64,000 bases of DNA from Vulcanimicrobiota bacterium (GTDB taxonomy: Bacteria > Vulcanimicrobiota > Vulcanimicrobiia > Vulcanimicrobiales > Vulcanimicrobiaceae): contig PLWS01000002.1 of assembly GCA_003151115.1 (NCBI GenBank), forward strand, positions 372,001 to 436,000, in the 5' to 3' direction. Every line of letters starts with the position of its first letter. Within the stretch, counting starts at the first letter, position 1. The notes beneath the pieces are model-generated. The model did no database searches. It had not been told where the DNA came from and worked only from the letters and a program-made list of their open reading frames with translations. Positions 8,533 through 39,629 of this stretch are shown in pieces. The translations under genes were made by a program, and so were the position numbers.

Positions 8533-9160
8533 TTACGGTGTGATTTTTCCGATCTTGTTGCCGGCGTTTTCGGTAAACCAGAGGTTGCCGTCCGGGCCGG
8601 CGACGATGCCGAACGGGGTCGCGTTACCAGTCGGAACCACATACTCGGTGAACGTGCCGCTCGTCGTGATCTTCCCAATTTTGTTGCCGGCGTTTTCGGT
8701 AAACCAGAGATTGCCGTCCGGGCCCGAGGCGATGCCTACCGGCGCCGAGTTAACCGTCGGAATCGCATACTCGGTGAACGTGCCGCTCGTGGTGATCTTT
8801 CCAATCTTGTTGCCACCGACTTCGGTAAACCAGAGGTTGCCGTCCGGGCCGGCGGTGATGCCGTAGGGGGTCGCGTTACTAGTCGGAATTGCATATTCGG
8901 TGATGGTGCCGCCTGTGGTGATCTTTCCAATCTTGTTGCCGCTTCTCTCGGTAAACCAGAGGTTGCCGTCCGGGCTGGCGGCGATACCGGTCGACTGTGA
9001 GAGATTCGTCGGAATCGTATACTCGGTGAACGCGCCGCCCGTGGTGATCTTTCCAATCTTGCCGCCGCTGTTTTCGGCAAACCAGAGGTTGCCGTCCGGA
9101 CCCGCGGCGATGAGGAACGGCCCCGCGTTACCCGTCGGAATCGCATACTCGGTGATGGTG
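8533..9160. repeat. 126-bp tandem coding repeats in the Vgb-like gene
   Basis: Five units of about 126 bp encode the propeller blades. Blocks such as CCAGAGGTTGCCGTCCGGGC and ATCTTTCCAATCTTGTTGCC recur almost unchanged. The high identity at DNA level indicates recent duplication or gene conversion. Spacers are absent, so it is not a CRISPR array. Confidence 0.8.
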
Positions 9161-9321
9161 CCAGGCGCTACCGGAGCGGCGACGGTTGACACTATTGGCG
9201 TCATGGTGCTGCCGCCAGCTCCGCCACCGCAATTCACTAAACCCAACGTAAATAGCGTAGTTGCAAGAATACGGCCGAAGCTATTGGCCGTGAGATCAAA
9301 AGTTCTTTTAAACATTCTCAT
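8533..9321 (-). CDS. Lipoprotein of virginiamycin-B-lyase-like (Vgb) propeller repeats
   Basis: This protein of about 262 aa has a lipoprotein signal (LFTLGLVNC lipobox) and then five ~42-residue repeats of the form TEYAIPT...GIAAGPDGNLWFTE...GNKIGKIT. This is the streptogramin (virginiamycin B) lyase beta-propeller pattern. Vgb proper has seven blades. Here only five are present, and the last ends abruptly at GKITP, so a closed propeller may not form and lyase activity is doubtful. Such repeat proteins are often surface or binding proteins in uncultured soil bacteria. The start is uncertain: ATG 9321 or ATG 9315, with a weak ribosome site. The terminator at 8484-8512 follows it. Confidence 0.75.
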   Translation of the reverse strand: MRMFKRTFDLTANSFGRILATTLFTLGLVNCGGGAGGSTMTPIVSTVAAPVAPGTITEYAIPTGNAGPFLIAAGPDGNLWFAENSGGKIGKITTGGAFTEYTIPTNLSQSTGIAASPDGNLWFTERSGNKIGKITTGGTITEYAIPTSNATPYGITAGPDGNLWFTEVGGNKIGKITTSGTFTEYAIPTVNSAPVGIASGPDGNLWFTENAGNKIGKITTSGTFTEYVVPTGNATPFGIVAGPDGNLWFTENAGNKIGKITP

Positions 9322-9384
9322 TTGAATATACCGGTTAAGCCATTCTCTGTTTTGTATTTGAACAGACTCAGAGTCTACCCACAA

Positions 9385-10498: not shown

Positions 10499-11239
10499 TT
10501 AGTGCGCGAAGCCGATGTCCTGGTTCGGACACCGATAGCTTGCGCATCGGCGCATCGTGCATTGCGCATCGGGCATCACGCATTGCGCATCGGCACATTG
10601 CGCATCGGCGCATAGCGCATCGACGCATTGCGCATCGGCACATTGCGCATCGGCGCATAGCGCATCGACGCATTGCGCATCGACGCATTGCGCATCGGGC
10701 GACCGGACGTTTTGCGCACTTAAGCTCCGCGCGTTTGGACCTCGTCGCGAGCTGACCGGACGTTTTGATTCCTTATGATATATCCCGAGAATCTTCTTGC
10801 CCTGAACGTTGCCGCTGACGTCGATCGTGTATTGCACCGGCGTCAGGCGATTGTATGTGATCGTTAGCGCCAGCTTCGGATAGATCGCGTGGAAGGCGAT
10901 GTGGTTGATTCCCGACGAGGTGCCGTGCAGCACGTCGTAACTGCCGGGTAGGAAGTCATCGAGTACGACCCACGTGCTGTCGACCTTACTGAACGTCAGG
11001 GTGTGTTCTGCGGTCACTTGGCCCTTGGTGCTGTCGGTCGCGCGCAGCCATAGACCGCCGACCGGAGCGGTCCAATCCTCGTTGTAGGTTCCGCCGCCGT
11101 CACCGGTTTGCGTGCAAACCCAGTGTCCTCTGAGTTGCAGCGCGACGAGGGGAGAAGCCGCCGTTTTTGCGTGCACCGTCGCGATGCCGCTCGCGAGCAC
11201 GGCGCCCGCAACGGCCGCCAAGAAAACTCTTCCCATCAT
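10499..11239 (-). CDS. Secreted protein with signal peptide; C-terminus made of a DNA tandem repeat
   Basis: The start is ATG 11239, with GGAGG 7 nt upstream; the longer frame is not used. This 246-aa protein has a signal peptide (MMGRVFLAAVAGAVLASGIATVHA) and a ~150-residue domain (LRGHWVCTQTGDGGGTYNEDW ... GIYHKE) that I do not recognise by name; it is beta-rich with a lipocalin-like rhythm. From residue ~160 on, the frame enters low-complexity DNA and becomes a Cys/Asp/Ala-rich string of DAQCVDAQC-type units before stopping at 10499. The repeat DNA has probably replaced the native stop, so the tail is likely an artefact of array expansion. Confidence 0.55.
   Translation of the reverse strand: MMGRVFLAAVAGAVLASGIATVHAKTAASPLVALQLRGHWVCTQTGDGGGTYNEDWTAPVGGLWLRATDSTKGQVTAEHTLTFSKVDSTWVVLDDFLPGSYDVLHGTSSGINHIAFHAIYPKLALTITYNRLTPVQYTIDVSGNVQGKKILGIYHKESKRPVSSRRGPNARSLSAQNVRSPDAQCVDAQCVDALCADAQCADAQCVDALCADAQCADAQCVMPDAQCTMRRCASYRCPNQDIGFAH
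10541..10700. repeat. 15-bp tandem repeat array
   Basis: Units of the form TTGCGCATCGGCRCA and TAGCGCATCGACGCA repeat without spacers in the regular part (about 10580-10700). There is a 45-bp higher-order period, and a degenerate start at 10541-10580. Because 15 is a multiple of 3 and the unit has no stop in several frames, all overlapping frames look open and repetitive. It is a minisatellite-like array, not CRISPR. Confidence 0.85.
10701..10767. repeat. 14-bp direct repeat flanking the end of the tandem array
   Basis: GACCGGACGTTTTG occurs at 10701-10714 and 10754-10767. The pair brackets a 39-bp segment between the 15-bp array and the intact part of the secreted-protein gene. It may mark a duplication formed when the array was acquired. 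Confidence 0.6.
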
Positions 11240-11268: not shown

Positions 11269-12414
11269 TTAAGGAACTTCGGCCTCCATTTCTTCGGGCT
11301 CTTCGGCCGGCTTGAAGAGCGCCTGTGCGATGAGGGTCGGCACGATCGCCGTCAAGATGACGACGGTCACCAGAGCCGTGTACTGCGACTGGTTGATGTA
11401 ATGGTGCGTCAGTCCGTAGAGGCTCGAAATCGTTCCGAATGTCAGGCCCGTCGCCATCATCAGCGTCAGGTAGCCCGCGTCCTTTGGCGAGTAGCGAAAA
11501 CCGTAGCGCGCGATCGGCAGCACGGCCACGACCTTTGCGACGATCTTCACGAAGAAGAGAACGGCGATCAGCCACGCGCTGCCCGCCGCCGCCGAGAACG
11601 AAATGTACGTTCCCGCCTTGATAAAATAAAACGGCGCGAGCAGCGTCATCGTCATCGTTTGCAGGCGGCGTTTCACATCGGGATAGGCGAACAGGAAGCC
11701 CGCGCACGCGATGCCGAGGAAGTAGGCCGGCAGCACGCCCTCACTTTTGGCGTACGTCGCCAGCGCCGCGAGGATAAAGATCACGGCAAACAAGATGCGC
11801 AGGCCCGGTTCGCTGACATAACGGCGCGTGCGTTCGATAACTGCCGGAAGCAGCTTGGGCACTACGATCATTCCGCCGACGATGCCGGCGACCAATAACG
11901 CCAGCCAAAGGTTATAGTTTGCGAACAACAATCCGAGCATCGCGACCGTTCCTAGGTCGGTGAAAAAGCACGCCGCCAAAATGAGTTGCCCGAATTCGCG
12001 TCCGGCGAGTCCCGTTTCTACCATGACGGCGTAGACCACCGCGACCGACGTCGTCGACATTGCCAATCCGGCGATCTTTGCCGCGGGCGCAGTCCAGTGC
12101 GCGACCAACAACGCGTAACCCATCGCTGCAAGAAACGGGGCAAGAAAAGATGCCGCGCCCAGCACCGTCGACGGAACGAGCTGCTTGCGCAAAACGACCG
12201 GATCGATCTCGGCGCCGGCCAAAAATGTCAGCAAGATGCTGCCGAAGCCCGCGACGAAATCGATCCATGCGTTGGTATGCAGCATGATGAAGTTGCCGGC
12301 GAGCATACCGATGATAATCTCGGCCAGCGCCGCCGGCATTTTGATGCGGATCGCAATGAGGGCGCTGACAGCGGCAAGTGCCATCCATATCGCCGCAACC
12401 AACCACATGTTCAT
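11269..12414 (-). CDS. Cation/proton antiporter, CPA2 (Kef/NapA-like) family
   Basis: This 381-aa integral membrane protein has about 11-12 hydrophobic segments and no soluble TrkA domain. PAALAEIIIGMLAGNF in the second helix and STTSVAVVYAVMVE and FFTDLGTVAML in the central helices match the CPA2 exchanger core, with acidic residues in the transport site region. It would exchange Na+ or K+ for protons across the inner membrane. Its ATG is preceded by GGGAG 5 nt upstream, but that ribosome site is buried in a stem of the structured leader (12415-12525), so translation is probably controlled. The C-terminus is acidic (EEPEEMEAEVP). Confidence 0.82.
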   Translation of the reverse strand: MNMWLVAAIWMALAAVSALIAIRIKMPAALAEIIIGMLAGNFIMLHTNAWIDFVAGFGSILLTFLAGAEIDPVVLRKQLVPSTVLGAASFLAPFLAAMGYALLVAHWTAPAAKIAGLAMSTTSVAVVYAVMVETGLAGREFGQLILAACFFTDLGTVAMLGLLFANYNLWLALLVAGIVGGMIVVPKLLPAVIERTRRYVSEPGLRILFAVIFILAALATYAKSEGVLPAYFLGIACAGFLFAYPDVKRRLQTMTMTLLAPFYFIKAGTYISFSAAAGSAWLIAVLFFVKIVAKVVAVLPIARYGFRYSPKDAGYLTLMMATGLTFGTISSLYGLTHHYINQSQYTALVTVVILTAIVPTLIAQALFKPAEEPEEMEAEVP

Positions 12415-12525
12415 GTAAACTCCCGTCTAAGCGCACGTGCAGACAGGAGCCATTAGCCGCGAGCGGCGGTTATCGGGGAGCTCCATCCCCTTCGGGGGCG
12501 CGTTTCAGCGCTTGGGTCTAGGCGC
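12415..12525 (-). promoter_or_regulatory. Structured leader of the antiporter gene, candidate ion-sensing riboswitch
   Basis: In the minus-strand transcript, CTCCTGTCT (12449-12441) pairs over 9 bp, with one G-U, with AGACGGGAG (12428-12420), which contains the ribosome site. Upstream are further hairpins: GCCGC/GCGGC with loop near 12456-12467, and CCCC-GAA-GGGG near 12486-12497. GGAGCTCC near 12477-12484 could compete for pairing. Such a layout in front of a Na+/H+-type antiporter resembles ion or ligand riboswitches, but I cannot match it to a named class. Confidence 0.45.
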
Positions 12526-12536
12526 CCTGGGCATTG

Positions 12537-14996
12537 TTAATCCGTGCGAACGATCGCAAAACACCGGGCATACCCTGGCCGAAACTCGTCGGGACAGAGA
12601 GCCCGGGTTGGGCCCGGATGGTAGTTCAAACCCGTGAAGGGCGCGGGCTGTTCGCGCCCGGTCTCGAGCGGCTGTATGAATGCTCCGGTCGCGCCGTTGG
12701 GAGTCCCGAGCCCTGTGGGTCCGTCGTAGCCGGCCGCGGCCGTGCAGTAATAGAGTGGATCGGGATTACAATTCCCGTTGTTCCCTGAAGTGATGTCGTA
12801 GAGCCAGCTGGTATGCGCGTAGGGATACGATCCGGCGACCACCGAGGATGCATTTCCCGAGATCGCATAGACGGATGCGATGATCGGAGAAGAGGCGCTC
12901 GTGCCGCCCACGCGCACCCACGTGCCGTTTCCGCTGGACTGGTACGTGTCGTAGGTCCAAACCGCCGTCGCGGGATCGGCCACCGCAGAGACGTCGGCGA
13001 CCATGCGGTTTGTGCACCCGCCGTCAATTTGCCAGGACGGCTTCGAGATGTACTGGCTGCACCCGCTGCCCGTGCCGGTGTCAGGTGTGCTGGTGCCCCA
13101 AGCGGTTTCGGACCAGCCGCGGTTGCCCGTAGCGGCCATGAGCGTCGTGCCCCCGACCGCCGTCACGTATTGTGACGACGCCGGGTAACTCACGCCACCT
13201 GCGTAAGCATTGTCGCCGCTACTGGCCGTGATCGGGATGCCGGGATGATTGAAGTTCTTTTCAGCCGCCAAGATGAGGACATTTTCGTTCAGACCCCAGC
13301 TGTTGCTGATCTCGGTCGCGCCTAGAGTAGCCGCCTCGTTCTCGGCTGCGTACAGGTTCGTGGTCGAATCCGTTGTTGCTTCGACGAGCAGAATATGACA
13401 ATTCGGACAGATCGCTGAAACCATGTCGATATCCAACGAGATCTCGCCGGCCCAGCCGGCGTCGGGAACGGGATAACTCGTCGTTCCGTCTTGCGCGCGT
13501 TTTTTGAAGCAGCCGTTTGCGGTCGTGCATGCCGGTAGTCCGAACGCGCTGCGATAAATCGCCAGATCGCTTTCGGCGGTCGGATCGTCGTATGCGTCGA
13601 CGATCGCGACTGTCTGCGTGCCGCCGCCCGCTGCCGAGCTGGCGGCTAAGTTGTAGGCCGATTGCAGATCGCATGGATAGTAGCCGGACAAGCCGGATCG
13701 ACCCGCGCTCCCTGTCGTCGTGCAAGGGCCCACCACCAAGAACGATCCCGTAACGGTGCCGCCGACGCTGGCTCTGATTCGGGTACCTGCAAACGCAGAG
13801 CTGCCGTTGTAGGTGAGTGTAACCGACGTGCTCGACGAAGAGACGGTCGTGACGTTGAGTGATGTCGCTCCGGTGTTATCGAGATTCGACAAAGTCACCG
13901 GAGTGTCGTAGGTCCCTCTAATCGTCTTTCCGTTAACGTCTTGCTCGGTAACGGTTAACGTAATGGTCTTCGGCGTTCCGATCGTGACCGACCCGAAGGC
14001 CGAGCTGGATGGTCCGGTGACGATGGCGGTCGAGACGGCTTCCGTCGCTGCAGCTGAGTAAATGGAACCCGACGAGCTCGTGAGGTACAGAGCTGATGGG
14101 CCGGCGGAGATGCTGAGCAAACCGGCACCGTTTTGCGCCGTAAATCCCGGTGTGTCCAGATCGTAGTAGTAGACTTGGTTGCCGCCGGATGCGACGGGGT
14201 AGCCCAATACGAAGAATCCGCCTTTGGTTGTCGGCGCTATGCCCGAAGCCGCGCCGGGAACCTGCGCGAAGCTCTGATTCGCATTCTCGTACCAAATTGA
14301 CCCGGAAGAACTCAGGATATAGACGCCGCCGGCATTGATGGGTCCACTTACGCCCGCGCCCGGCGTAAAGTTGTTTGTGTCCCAGTTCGCCGCAAGCGCC
14401 GTACCCGAACCAAGGAGTTGCGTCCATCCGCCGCTCGGCGAATAATGCCAGATCGCCCGATCGGCTCCCGAGCCTCCATTTGAAAGAACGTATATTCCGT
14501 TGGATGCATCCGCGGTTATGCTGTTCGTGGCGCCGCCGCCGGGCGACGTCCAAGTTCCGCCGCTGTAATGCCAGATGCCGCCGGCTGAGTTAAGCGCCCA
14601 CAGCGATCCGTCCGCGGCGACGGAGAGATTTGACGCCAAACCGGAAATATTGGTCCAGCTTCCGCCCGAATAATGCCAGATATACTTATCGGGGCCGCTC
14701 GGTTGATCGGAAAGCACCCACAGAGATCCGTCAGGGCTGGCTGCCACCACGCTGGCGGTACCCGGAATCGGCATCCAGTTCAGCGGTAGAACCGCGGTAT
14801 CTGATTTCGGCGGCGACTGCATCGCACTGGCGGGAAGAATGGTCGTCTTCGCCATCGGAGCCGCCGGAATGGTTCCCGGCGAGACCGATTGCGGGGTGAT
14901 CGGCAGGCTTGAGCCGGCCGGAAGCACACCTGAGCTGCCGTGAGAACACCCGGCGAGGACGGCAAAAAGCACGCCGACGAAAAGACGCTTGCGCAT
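12537..14996 (-). CDS. Sedolisin-type (S53) serine-carboxyl protease lipoprotein
   Basis: This 819-aa protein begins with a lipoprotein signal (FAVLAGC). Residues ~70-310 hold repeated SLWVLS / IWHYSGGSWT units resembling a tectonin/propeller domain, followed by an Ig-like strand region near 325-420. The catalytic part spans ~430-790. E518 and D522 (EISLDID) and S700 (GGTSASSP) match the Glu-Asp-Ser triad of peptidase family S53, and SSGDNAYAGGVSYPASS supplies the usual oxyanion region. It is predicted to be exported and membrane-anchored, degrading peptides, perhaps at low pH. No pro-domain of the usual S53 type is obvious; the propeller takes its place. Confidence 0.8.
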   Translation of the reverse strand: MRKRLFVGVLFAVLAGCSHGSSGVLPAGSSLPITPQSVSPGTIPAAPMAKTTILPASAMQSPPKSDTAVLPLNWMPIPGTASVVAASPDGSLWVLSDQPSGPDKYIWHYSGGSWTNISGLASNLSVAADGSLWALNSAGGIWHYSGGTWTSPGGGATNSITADASNGIYVLSNGGSGADRAIWHYSPSGGWTQLLGSGTALAANWDTNNFTPGAGVSGPINAGGVYILSSSGSIWYENANQSFAQVPGAASGIAPTTKGGFFVLGYPVASGGNQVYYYDLDTPGFTAQNGAGLLSISAGPSALYLTSSSGSIYSAAATEAVSTAIVTGPSSSAFGSVTIGTPKTITLTVTEQDVNGKTIRGTYDTPVTLSNLDNTGATSLNVTTVSSSSTSVTLTYNGSSAFAGTRIRASVGGTVTGSFLVVGPCTTTGSAGRSGLSGYYPCDLQSAYNLAASSAAGGGTQTVAIVDAYDDPTAESDLAIYRSAFGLPACTTANGCFKKRAQDGTTSYPVPDAGWAGEISLDIDMVSAICPNCHILLVEATTDSTTNLYAAENEAATLGATEISNSWGLNENVLILAAEKNFNHPGIPITASSGDNAYAGGVSYPASSQYVTAVGGTTLMAATGNRGWSETAWGTSTPDTGTGSGCSQYISKPSWQIDGGCTNRMVADVSAVADPATAVWTYDTYQSSGNGTWVRVGGTSASSPIIASVYAISGNASSVVAGSYPYAHTSWLYDITSGNNGNCNPDPLYYCTAAAGYDGPTGLGTPNGATGAFIQPLETGREQPAPFTGLNYHPGPTRALCPDEFRPGYARCFAIVRTD

Positions 14997-15065
14997 CCAC
15001 CGCGATTCCCTCCGCGCAAGAGAGTGCCCCTTTTCCTGGGGCCCTGAGAAACGTTAAGAATGGGC

Positions 15066-16715
15066 CTAAGCAGGCAGGCCCTCACGAGCGAGCATGGCCC
15101 GGTAGATTTCCTCGACACGATCGATCGAATCGATCTCGGCCGCGGGCTTGTCGTCGCGGATTCGGACGATGCGCGGAAAGCGCAACGCAAAGCCGCTTTC
15201 GTGCAGATCGCTTGGCTGGATGATGTCGAAGGCGACTTCGAGCACGATCTTCGGCTCGACGGTTATCGCGTGTCCGCGCCGTCCGCGCTTATGCGCCAAG
15301 AACCAGGGCGTGAGCTCGGCGATTTCCGCGTCGGTTAAGCCCGAGTACGCCTTGCCGATCGTTCGCAACACGCCGTCCTTACCGCGCACGGCGAATGTGT
15401 AATCGGAGAGAACCTTGGCGCGCTTGCCGTGCCCCCACTCGACCGCGACGACGACGACGTCGAGCGTCGACAGCTCGCGCTTGAGTTTGAGCCACCATTT
15501 TCCGCGCCGTCCAGGATGGTATAGCGACTCGCTACGCTTGAGCATGATGCCTTCGTGTCCGCGTCCGCGAGCTGTGTCGAACAGTTCGTGCAATTCCTCC
15601 GGCGCCGGCGTTTTCGAGAGCCGCGTGAAGCGCGCGATCTCCAAGTGCCCGCTCGCGACGATCGTTTCGGCCAAGCGTTCGCGCCGTACGACCAGCGGCT
15701 CGTCTATCAAGAAATCGTCACCCGACGCGAGCATGTCGAAGACGAAGTAACTGACCGGCACTTCCTTGAGAAGCTCGGGTTCTACGGTCTTGCGCTGCAG
15801 CCGCGCCTGCAGGTAACGAAACGGCAGCACGCTCTCGCCTCGCTTTGCAACGATCTCACCGTCGAGCATGAAGTTGCCGGGAACCGCACCCAGTGCGGCG
15901 GCGACTTCCGGGTAAGATTGCGTCACGTCGTTCAACGTGCGCGAGAAGAGCTTGACGCTTTTGCCGGCCTTGTGCGCATGCGCGCGAATGCCGTCGAATT
16001 TCTCTTCGGCCAGCCACGTGCCTGTGCGCAAGTCTCTGTAATCGGAGCCGTAGATTATCGGAGACGCAAGCATGAAACCGATCGGCGAACCGTAAGCCAC
16101 GCGCAGATCGCCGAGATTTCCCTCGCGCGCCGCGATCGTGACTGCGCCGATGTCGCCGGCCGCCATGACGGCGCGCCGCACTTCGTGCGCATCGCGTTCG
16201 AACGCTGCCGCGACCGCGTCGGCAACGAGCCCCTCGCGCAGGCCGATCCGAAGATCGCCGGTCATGATTTTTATGACATAGGTCGCTTCGGTTGCGTCGG
16301 CGCACGCGCGTAGAATGCGCTCGACGCCCGCGGCTTTACCGCGCGCGTTTGCGATCTCTTCGAAGAGCGCGTAGAGTGAAGCCGGCGTCAGCGTCTCGGA
16401 GAAAAGCGCGAGATCCATCGCCGCACGAACGAATGGGCCGAGCGCCGCGCCGAGATCGCCGTGCTCGCGGTAGTTCGCGCCAAGTTGCGCTTCGTCGAAG
16501 CCCCATGCGTTGCGTGCTGCGGCAACGATGGTACGCCAGCCAATGCCTAGGCTGCGATCGTCGCGCGCCGCGAAGGGGTTGCCGGTGAAGAAGCGCACCG
16601 CCGCGCTGAGATTTGCGTCATCGAGCGAGCGAAAGTACTCTGCAAGCAGCGCGATCTTTTCGATCTTTCCGGCACGCGCCGCGATCGCCGCGCAAGTCTG
16701 TCCGAAGCGAAGCAT
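15066..16715 (-). CDS. ATP-dependent DNA ligase
   Basis: This 549-aa protein has an N-terminal helical DNA-binding domain (1-210), the nucleotidyltransferase motif I EKFDGIR with the AMP-accepting lysine K239, motif III FMLDGEIV, motif IV HEGIMLK, motif V WWLKLK, and an OB-fold C-terminus. It would seal nicks using ATP. It follows the ligase-associated exonuclease gene by 4 nt on the same strand, an association known from a conserved bacterial repair cassette that often includes an Lhr-type helicase. Helicase and phosphoesterase partners are not present here. Confidence 0.88.
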   Translation of the reverse strand: MLRFGQTCAAIAARAGKIEKIALLAEYFRSLDDANLSAAVRFFTGNPFAARDDRSLGIGWRTIVAAARNAWGFDEAQLGANYREHGDLGAALGPFVRAAMDLALFSETLTPASLYALFEEIANARGKAAGVERILRACADATEATYVIKIMTGDLRIGLREGLVADAVAAAFERDAHEVRRAVMAAGDIGAVTIAAREGNLGDLRVAYGSPIGFMLASPIIYGSDYRDLRTGTWLAEEKFDGIRAHAHKAGKSVKLFSRTLNDVTQSYPEVAAALGAVPGNFMLDGEIVAKRGESVLPFRYLQARLQRKTVEPELLKEVPVSYFVFDMLASGDDFLIDEPLVVRRERLAETIVASGHLEIARFTRLSKTPAPEELHELFDTARGRGHEGIMLKRSESLYHPGRRGKWWLKLKRELSTLDVVVVAVEWGHGKRAKVLSDYTFAVRGKDGVLRTIGKAYSGLTDAEIAELTPWFLAHKRGRRGHAITVEPKIVLEVAFDIIQPSDLHESGFALRFPRIVRIRDDKPAAEIDSIDRVEEIYRAMLAREGLPA

Positions 16716-39399: not shown

Positions 39400-39442
39400 C
39401 GCAACCCTTTCCCTTTCGCGAGGCGGTTGTGTGTGCGTTTGC

Positions 39443-39595
39443 GCTGGTATCCTGACTCGCGGATCGTAGCCTCGTGCCCGTGCCTTCCCCCCAAAGGAGT
39501 GACATCGGGCGGCTCCCCGCCTACAGTGGCGCGACCGTGCCGGCATTCGACCGGCTTCCCGCGCACAAACGTGTATGGCGAGATACCGCGGTGCA
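39443..39595 (-). promoter_or_regulatory. Cobalamin riboswitch
   Basis: On the minus strand the sequence carries GGGAAGCCGGT, GCGCCACTGTAGGCGGGGAG and the B12 box AGTCAGGATACC (39457-39446), in the order and spacing of adenosylcobalamin riboswitches. It lies 44 nt before btuB and should repress uptake when B12 is plentiful. Confidence 0.93.
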
Positions 39596-39629
39596 GGCTA
39601 GGCTTCCTGGTCTTTGGAAGCTCGCGCGA

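Follow-up and report, generated by a model that had tools for sequence, protein, structure and literature searches.

A fluoride-sensing riboswitch in the 64,000-nt window analyzed here (the entire stretch of contig PLWS01000002.1 under study) very probably switches on translation of a CPA2-type antiporter, which would in turn counter fluoride stress; a probability of roughly 0.93 is assigned to this reading. When the whole window was compared with Rfam 15, only two matches reached gathering scores. The first, at 12499-12437 on the minus strand, is to RF01734, the fluoride riboswitch aptamer (50.1 bits, E 6.7e-11); it clears the family gathering score of 34 bits, is complete over model positions 1-64 in the cmscan alignment, and is the sole RF01734 match in a scan of the whole genome. 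The other is a cobalamin riboswitch at 39425-39598 (minus strand, 64.7 bits).

The architecture required of a fluoride aptamer was found in the Rfam alignment. The P1 hairpin (12475-12490) pairs GGGG 12490-12487 with CCCC 12478-12475 around the loop AUGGAGCU (12486-12479), the P3 hairpin (12456-12467) pairs GCCG 12467-12464 with CGGC 12459-12456, and the pseudoknot joins GGAG in the P1 loop (12481-12484) to CUCC on the 3' side of P3 (12446-12449). These hairpins are the further upstream hairpins mentioned in the preliminary description of this DNA, and the competing element that it reported, GGAGCTCC, includes the first pseudoknot strand: GGAGCUCC at 12484-12477 (minus strand) is the P1 loop region of the aptamer, and its GGAG pairs with CUCC 12449-12446 as the pseudoknot. 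The bases that surround the ion in the crystal structure (A6, U7, G8, U41 and G42) are all present, as A12486, U12485, G12484, U12452 and G12451. The window copy differs from the RF01734 consensus at aptamer position 39, which is A instead of G, and close relatives vary at this position too. Both members of the linchpin pair, A40 (12453) and U48 (12445), were located by alignment; this pair caps the pseudoknot, and the fluoride-locked state depends on it (PMC8752731). The minus-strand leader, taken from 12500 up to the start codon, is CGCCCCCGAAGGGGAUGGAGCUCCCCGAUAACCGCCGCUCGCGGCUAAUGGCUCCUGUCUGCACGUGCGCUUAGACGGGAGUUUAC-AUG. The copy is predicted to bind fluoride.

Downstream of P3 the leader forms a stem of nine uninterrupted pairs between the anti-ribosome-site strand CUCCUGUCU (12449-12441) and its partner AGACGGGAG (12428-12420, both on the minus strand), or of 12 pairs when the G-U pairs at its ends are counted. 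The partner strand contains the ribosome site GGGAG (12424-12420), five bases ahead of the AUG at 12414, and the 9-bp stem sequestering GGGAG that had been described earlier is thus present. Folded alone, the stem has an energy of -16.9 kcal/mol; when no constraint is placed on the leader, the probability that the ribosome site is unpaired is 0.001. The aptamer P1 and pseudoknot are absent from the single-sequence minimum-energy fold, which comes from a program that cannot score pseudoknots. When P1 and P3 were imposed and both pseudoknot strands were kept out of other pairing, the unpaired probability of the ribosome site was 0.77, in a model with no explicit pseudoknot energy; with the pseudoknot strand alone withheld and P1 and P3 free, the site was still mostly paired, both in the window and in several homologues. 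The CUCC at 12449-12446 serves both as the second pseudoknot strand and as bases 1-4 of the anti-ribosome-site strand, so that the two pairings are mutually exclusive, suggesting a translational ON switch for fluoride. Here the ribosome site is paired by the very strand that the aptamer uses in its other state, which is the arrangement that marks a translational riboswitch.

The following course of events is proposed. When fluoride is absent, CUCC 12449-12446 would pair with the ribosome site in the 9-12 bp stem and translation would be off. On binding of Mg2+ and F-, the GGAG of the P1 loop would capture CUCC in the pseudoknot capped by A40-U48, blocking the stem, freeing the ribosome site and allowing the antiporter to be made. 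The antiporter would then counter fluoride stress; its most likely means of doing so is cation/proton exchange, which would restore internal pH and ion balance after the entry of HF. The direction of switching, ON with fluoride, is likewise a prediction from the pairing pattern. A tract common to the pseudoknot and the expression platform is general in fluoride riboswitches (PMC11077080), and members that act on translation have been described (PMC13273304). The leader in the window resembles the latter (crcB motif, RF01734, of Burkholderia and Pseudomonas syringae) both in its complete aptamer, with P1, P3, pseudoknot and A40-U48, and in the sharing of a pseudoknot strand with the platform. 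The fluoride riboswitch of B. cereus, in contrast, is a well-studied terminator, whereas the platform in the window hides the ribosome site of the antiporter gene.

The total folding energy of the leader is ordinary for its composition (z of -0.5 against shuffles), as would be expected of a GC-rich leader folding by chance with no regulatory function. That the structure is nevertheless not a product of chance is argued by the 50.1-bit covariance-model score, by the absence of so long a stem from all 500 shuffles, and by covariation in homologues. For comparison, the 30 top-ranking antiporter homologues in the phylum were taken together with their leaders, and the aptamer motif and stem were detected automatically in 26 of them; the other four had Ns beside the start, a crcB gene between riboswitch and antiporter, a misassigned start with the aptamer still visible, or no aptamer. 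Most leaders, taken singly, have a stem that stands out from shuffles. Among 24 distinct homologous leaders, standard pairs occupy 85.3% of stem cells, and changes on both sides of a pair were found in 28 cells, involving five pairs, as compared to 10.2 in shuffles (none of 500 reaching 28). These leaders give a stem covariation score of 0.345, whereas shuffles give 0.169 and slid controls do not exceed 0.077; for these counts the inter-strand loops were replaced by N and the register was that of the longest helix in each leader, which somewhat favours structure. The fixed core, CUCC/GGAG, is nearly invariant and is uninformative alone. The stem therefore covaries strongly in homologous leaders, and the lack of covariation that the preliminary description had named as grounds for abandoning a regulatory structure is not what these leaders show. 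Together with the conserved linkage described below, this covariation rules out a chance fold, the likelihood of which is judged negligible.

The preliminary description had suggested a riboswitch for Na+ or Li+, or else a new class of ion sensor. In favour of this proposal, the leader precedes a cation/proton antiporter gene, as Li+ riboswitches precede nhaA genes (PMC9646797) and the window shares with these (nhaA-I and nhaA-II) an ion-sensing RNA ahead of such a gene. However, the Li+ riboswitches are different RNAs linked to a different antiporter family, and the gene product in the window is not NhaA but a PF00999 protein of the CPA2 type. With Rfam 15 models, no riboswitch class for Na+ or Li+ was matched anywhere in the window at gathering scores, nor between 12380 and 12580 at E<=1, and no other cis-regulatory family matched the leader at E<=1. 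The fluoride aptamer, matched at full length, is the only significant Rfam match in the leader, which rules out the proposed ligand class and makes any such reading very improbable. The riboswitch-like leader hiding its ribosome site, the competing element and the expectation of covariation were thus borne out, but the ligand was misassigned.

The best-characterized fluoride riboswitches are transcriptional, and it could be argued that the riboswitch acts mainly by transcription termination, with the stem over the ribosome site serving as a terminator hairpin. Seven U residues do follow the stem in two leaders of the same genus (L039 and L040), and a strong hairpin followed by a U-run occurs in several distant leaders. 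In the window, however, the stem is followed only by UUUAC, and no terminator-like site was found on the minus strand; with just UUU after the stem, a purely transcriptional mode is unlikely there. The ribosome site, moreover, lies inside the stem itself, 5 bases from the AUG, and the U-run is absent in many homologues (L051, L052, L058 and L066). Termination as the main mechanism in the window is accordingly disfavoured by the missing U-run and considered quite unlikely, while the U7 tracts of the two same-genus leaders suggest that dual action, including termination, may occur in some members.

The gene probably governed by the fluoride riboswitch (11269-12414, minus strand) encodes a 381-aa protein, which agrees with the cation/proton antiporter recognized earlier: it carries a Na_H_Exchanger domain (PF00999, 5e-35 in Pfam) with a CPA fold. 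The NCBIfam CPA2 subfamily model scored 94.6 bits, below its cut-off of 238.3. A search of solved structures with the single sequence returned nothing useful, but a family profile matched NapA (3.9e-18) and KefC (4.3e-12) in the PDB. The predicted structural model (pLDDT 85.9) aligned to NapA over 362 residues with a Z of 41.5 at 3.3 A, and shares its fold with the CPA2 exchangers NapA (4bwz, 5bz2) and KefC (8bxg). The protein thus belongs to a clade of the NapA/KefC fold (CPA2), and cation/proton transport is its predicted activity. In the profile alignment to NapA, to which identity is about 21%, the ion-site residues D157 and K305 correspond to D153 and K294, and D156, the first Asp of the NapA pair, corresponds to T152 (residue numbers counted from the alignment). 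The NapA-type Asp-Asp pair is therefore not present in the antiporter, which has T152-D153 instead. Of 81 family members, 80 retain D153, 66 have T and 15 have N at position 152, and K290, K294 and E225 are invariant; in comparison with NapA and KefC, the clade of the window antiporter is also marked by conservation of K266 and E225. With T/N-D at this site the family resembles electroneutral exchangers, and the arrangement would suit electroneutral cation/proton exchange. The long C-terminal domain of KefC is absent from the window antiporter. In one homologue of 69% identity (L052), the ion-site Asp153 is replaced by G, which reflects either an error in sequencing or a change in the transporter.

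The closest relatives of the antiporter are found in Candidatus Eremiobacterota, and members of 46-54% identity occur in Chloroflexota, Nitrospirota, Bacillota, Armatimonadota, several Deltaproteobacteria-labelled groups, Mesorhizobium and others. The loci of relatives were retrieved by protein similarity alone. Directly upstream of the antiporter gene, RF01734 was found in 41 of 60 scanned relatives, mostly from other phyla (a count of matches within about 300 bases, tallied by hand from tables), and at several more of the 60 loci it lies further upstream, leaving space for another gene. By genome, RF01734 is present in 32 of the 34 Eremiobacterota genomes that have the antiporter, as compared to 42 of the 115 that do not. 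These two distributions indicate that the clade is predominantly fluoride-regulated, which fits the reported rank of Na+/H+ antiporters as the commonest gene class linked to fluoride riboswitches after exporters, a linkage explained by pH homeostasis (PMC11139923). A fluoride riboswitch directly before a Na+/H+ antiporter gene is therefore of a kind already described, of which the window provides a further member. It differs from the antiporters linked in that report in lying in an Eremiobacterota genome with no detectable CrcB or CLC, and in that the clade is defined here by sequence and by linkage across many phyla.

Several other features of these loci may be recorded. In two genomes (G103 and G105), a DNA-ligase-like gene seemingly runs directly up to the antiporter leader; in the window, ligase and leader are separated by an 819-aa, secreted-protease-like protein with a Tectonin domain match (12537-16715, minus strand). 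Further along, the window contains a Virginiamycin B lyase family protein (8533-9384, minus strand; PF24684, 4.9e-81) with 126-base internal DNA repeats, and a tandem repeat of about 10.7 copies of the 15-base unit TTGCGCATCGGCGCA (10540-10698). A candidate fluoride aptamer with G6-C38 in place of A6-U38 accounts for 23 of 123 pattern matches, A-U being found in 89; matches with neither pair are mostly false. The variant, in which P1 and P3 are nearly always separated by an additional small hairpin, occurs in leaders of antiporter relatives (L053-L055 and L057-L066) and at L156, L157, L161, L162 and L128 (minus strand), nearly all in Eremiobacterota, where most of its Rfam scores fall at about 22-39 bits. 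With scores around or below the gathering score, it may be missed by surveys. Some relatives have 4-7 fluoride riboswitches in each genome, most of them in clusters (L031, G118:C1, G033:C21 and C35, G099:C20, G077:C3). At L031 (G108:C5:365000-384900), riboswitches accompany CrcB, DUF190, dynamin-like, MutS-like, phosphoesterase and NADH-dehydrogenase-like genes in an apparent fluoride-response island.

Profile searches found no match to CrcB (PF02537) or CLC (PF00654) in the 98.5% complete genome from which the window derives; the same searches gave CrcB and CLC matches in 10 and 12, respectively, of 14 control genomes. Including this one, 19 Eremiobacterota genomes carry the riboswitch and antiporter with no match to either exporter family. 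The antiporter is negatively associated with these families, which are present in 13/34 genomes with the antiporter and 81/115 without it (p 0.001, with no phylogenetic correction), and 24 of 50 distant antiporter genomes likewise have neither family. The 24 include cultured strains such as Desulfovirgula thermocuniculi and Desulfofundulus thermobenzoicus; among the others, incomplete metagenome assemblies are numerous. Each of these distributions would be expected if the antiporter were itself a fluoride-resistance transporter, acting by export or by export coupled to cations or protons and replacing CrcB and CLC-F. Such a role concerns the gene and is compatible with control by the fluoride riboswitch. 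However, the cation-exchanger fold with its conserved ion-site aspartate D153 and K294 speaks against it, divergent exporters may escape profile searches, and related genomes are not independent. Antiporter and CrcB also occur together in 11 Eremiobacterota genomes, some of them side by side or in one gene cluster, as would be expected of a helper. Strict mutual exclusion of the two is ruled out by these 11 genomes. The antiporter would thus most likely have a helper role, in pH and ion balance, and replacement of the exporters is unlikely. Individual arrangements include riboswitch, crcB and antiporter in one cluster (G034, L050, G034:C119:1926-3926) and antiporter followed by crcB (G126 and G128, L053 and L054).

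With the ligand reassigned from Na+ or Li+ to fluoride, the window adds covariation support for a translational fluoride switch, a type of platform that has been less studied than terminators. No functional tests of fluoride-linked CPA2 antiporters were found in the open literature searched. There is an outside chance, judging from gene content, that fluoride resistance depends chiefly on transport by the riboswitch-linked CPA2 clade, possibly as a third kind of fluoride exporter, in carriers that lack CrcB and CLC; if so, the known exporter families would be incomplete. The clade is widespread, mostly under fluoride control and often found without any known fluoride exporter, raising the question of whether a CPA2 antiporter alone can confer fluoride resistance, and how.
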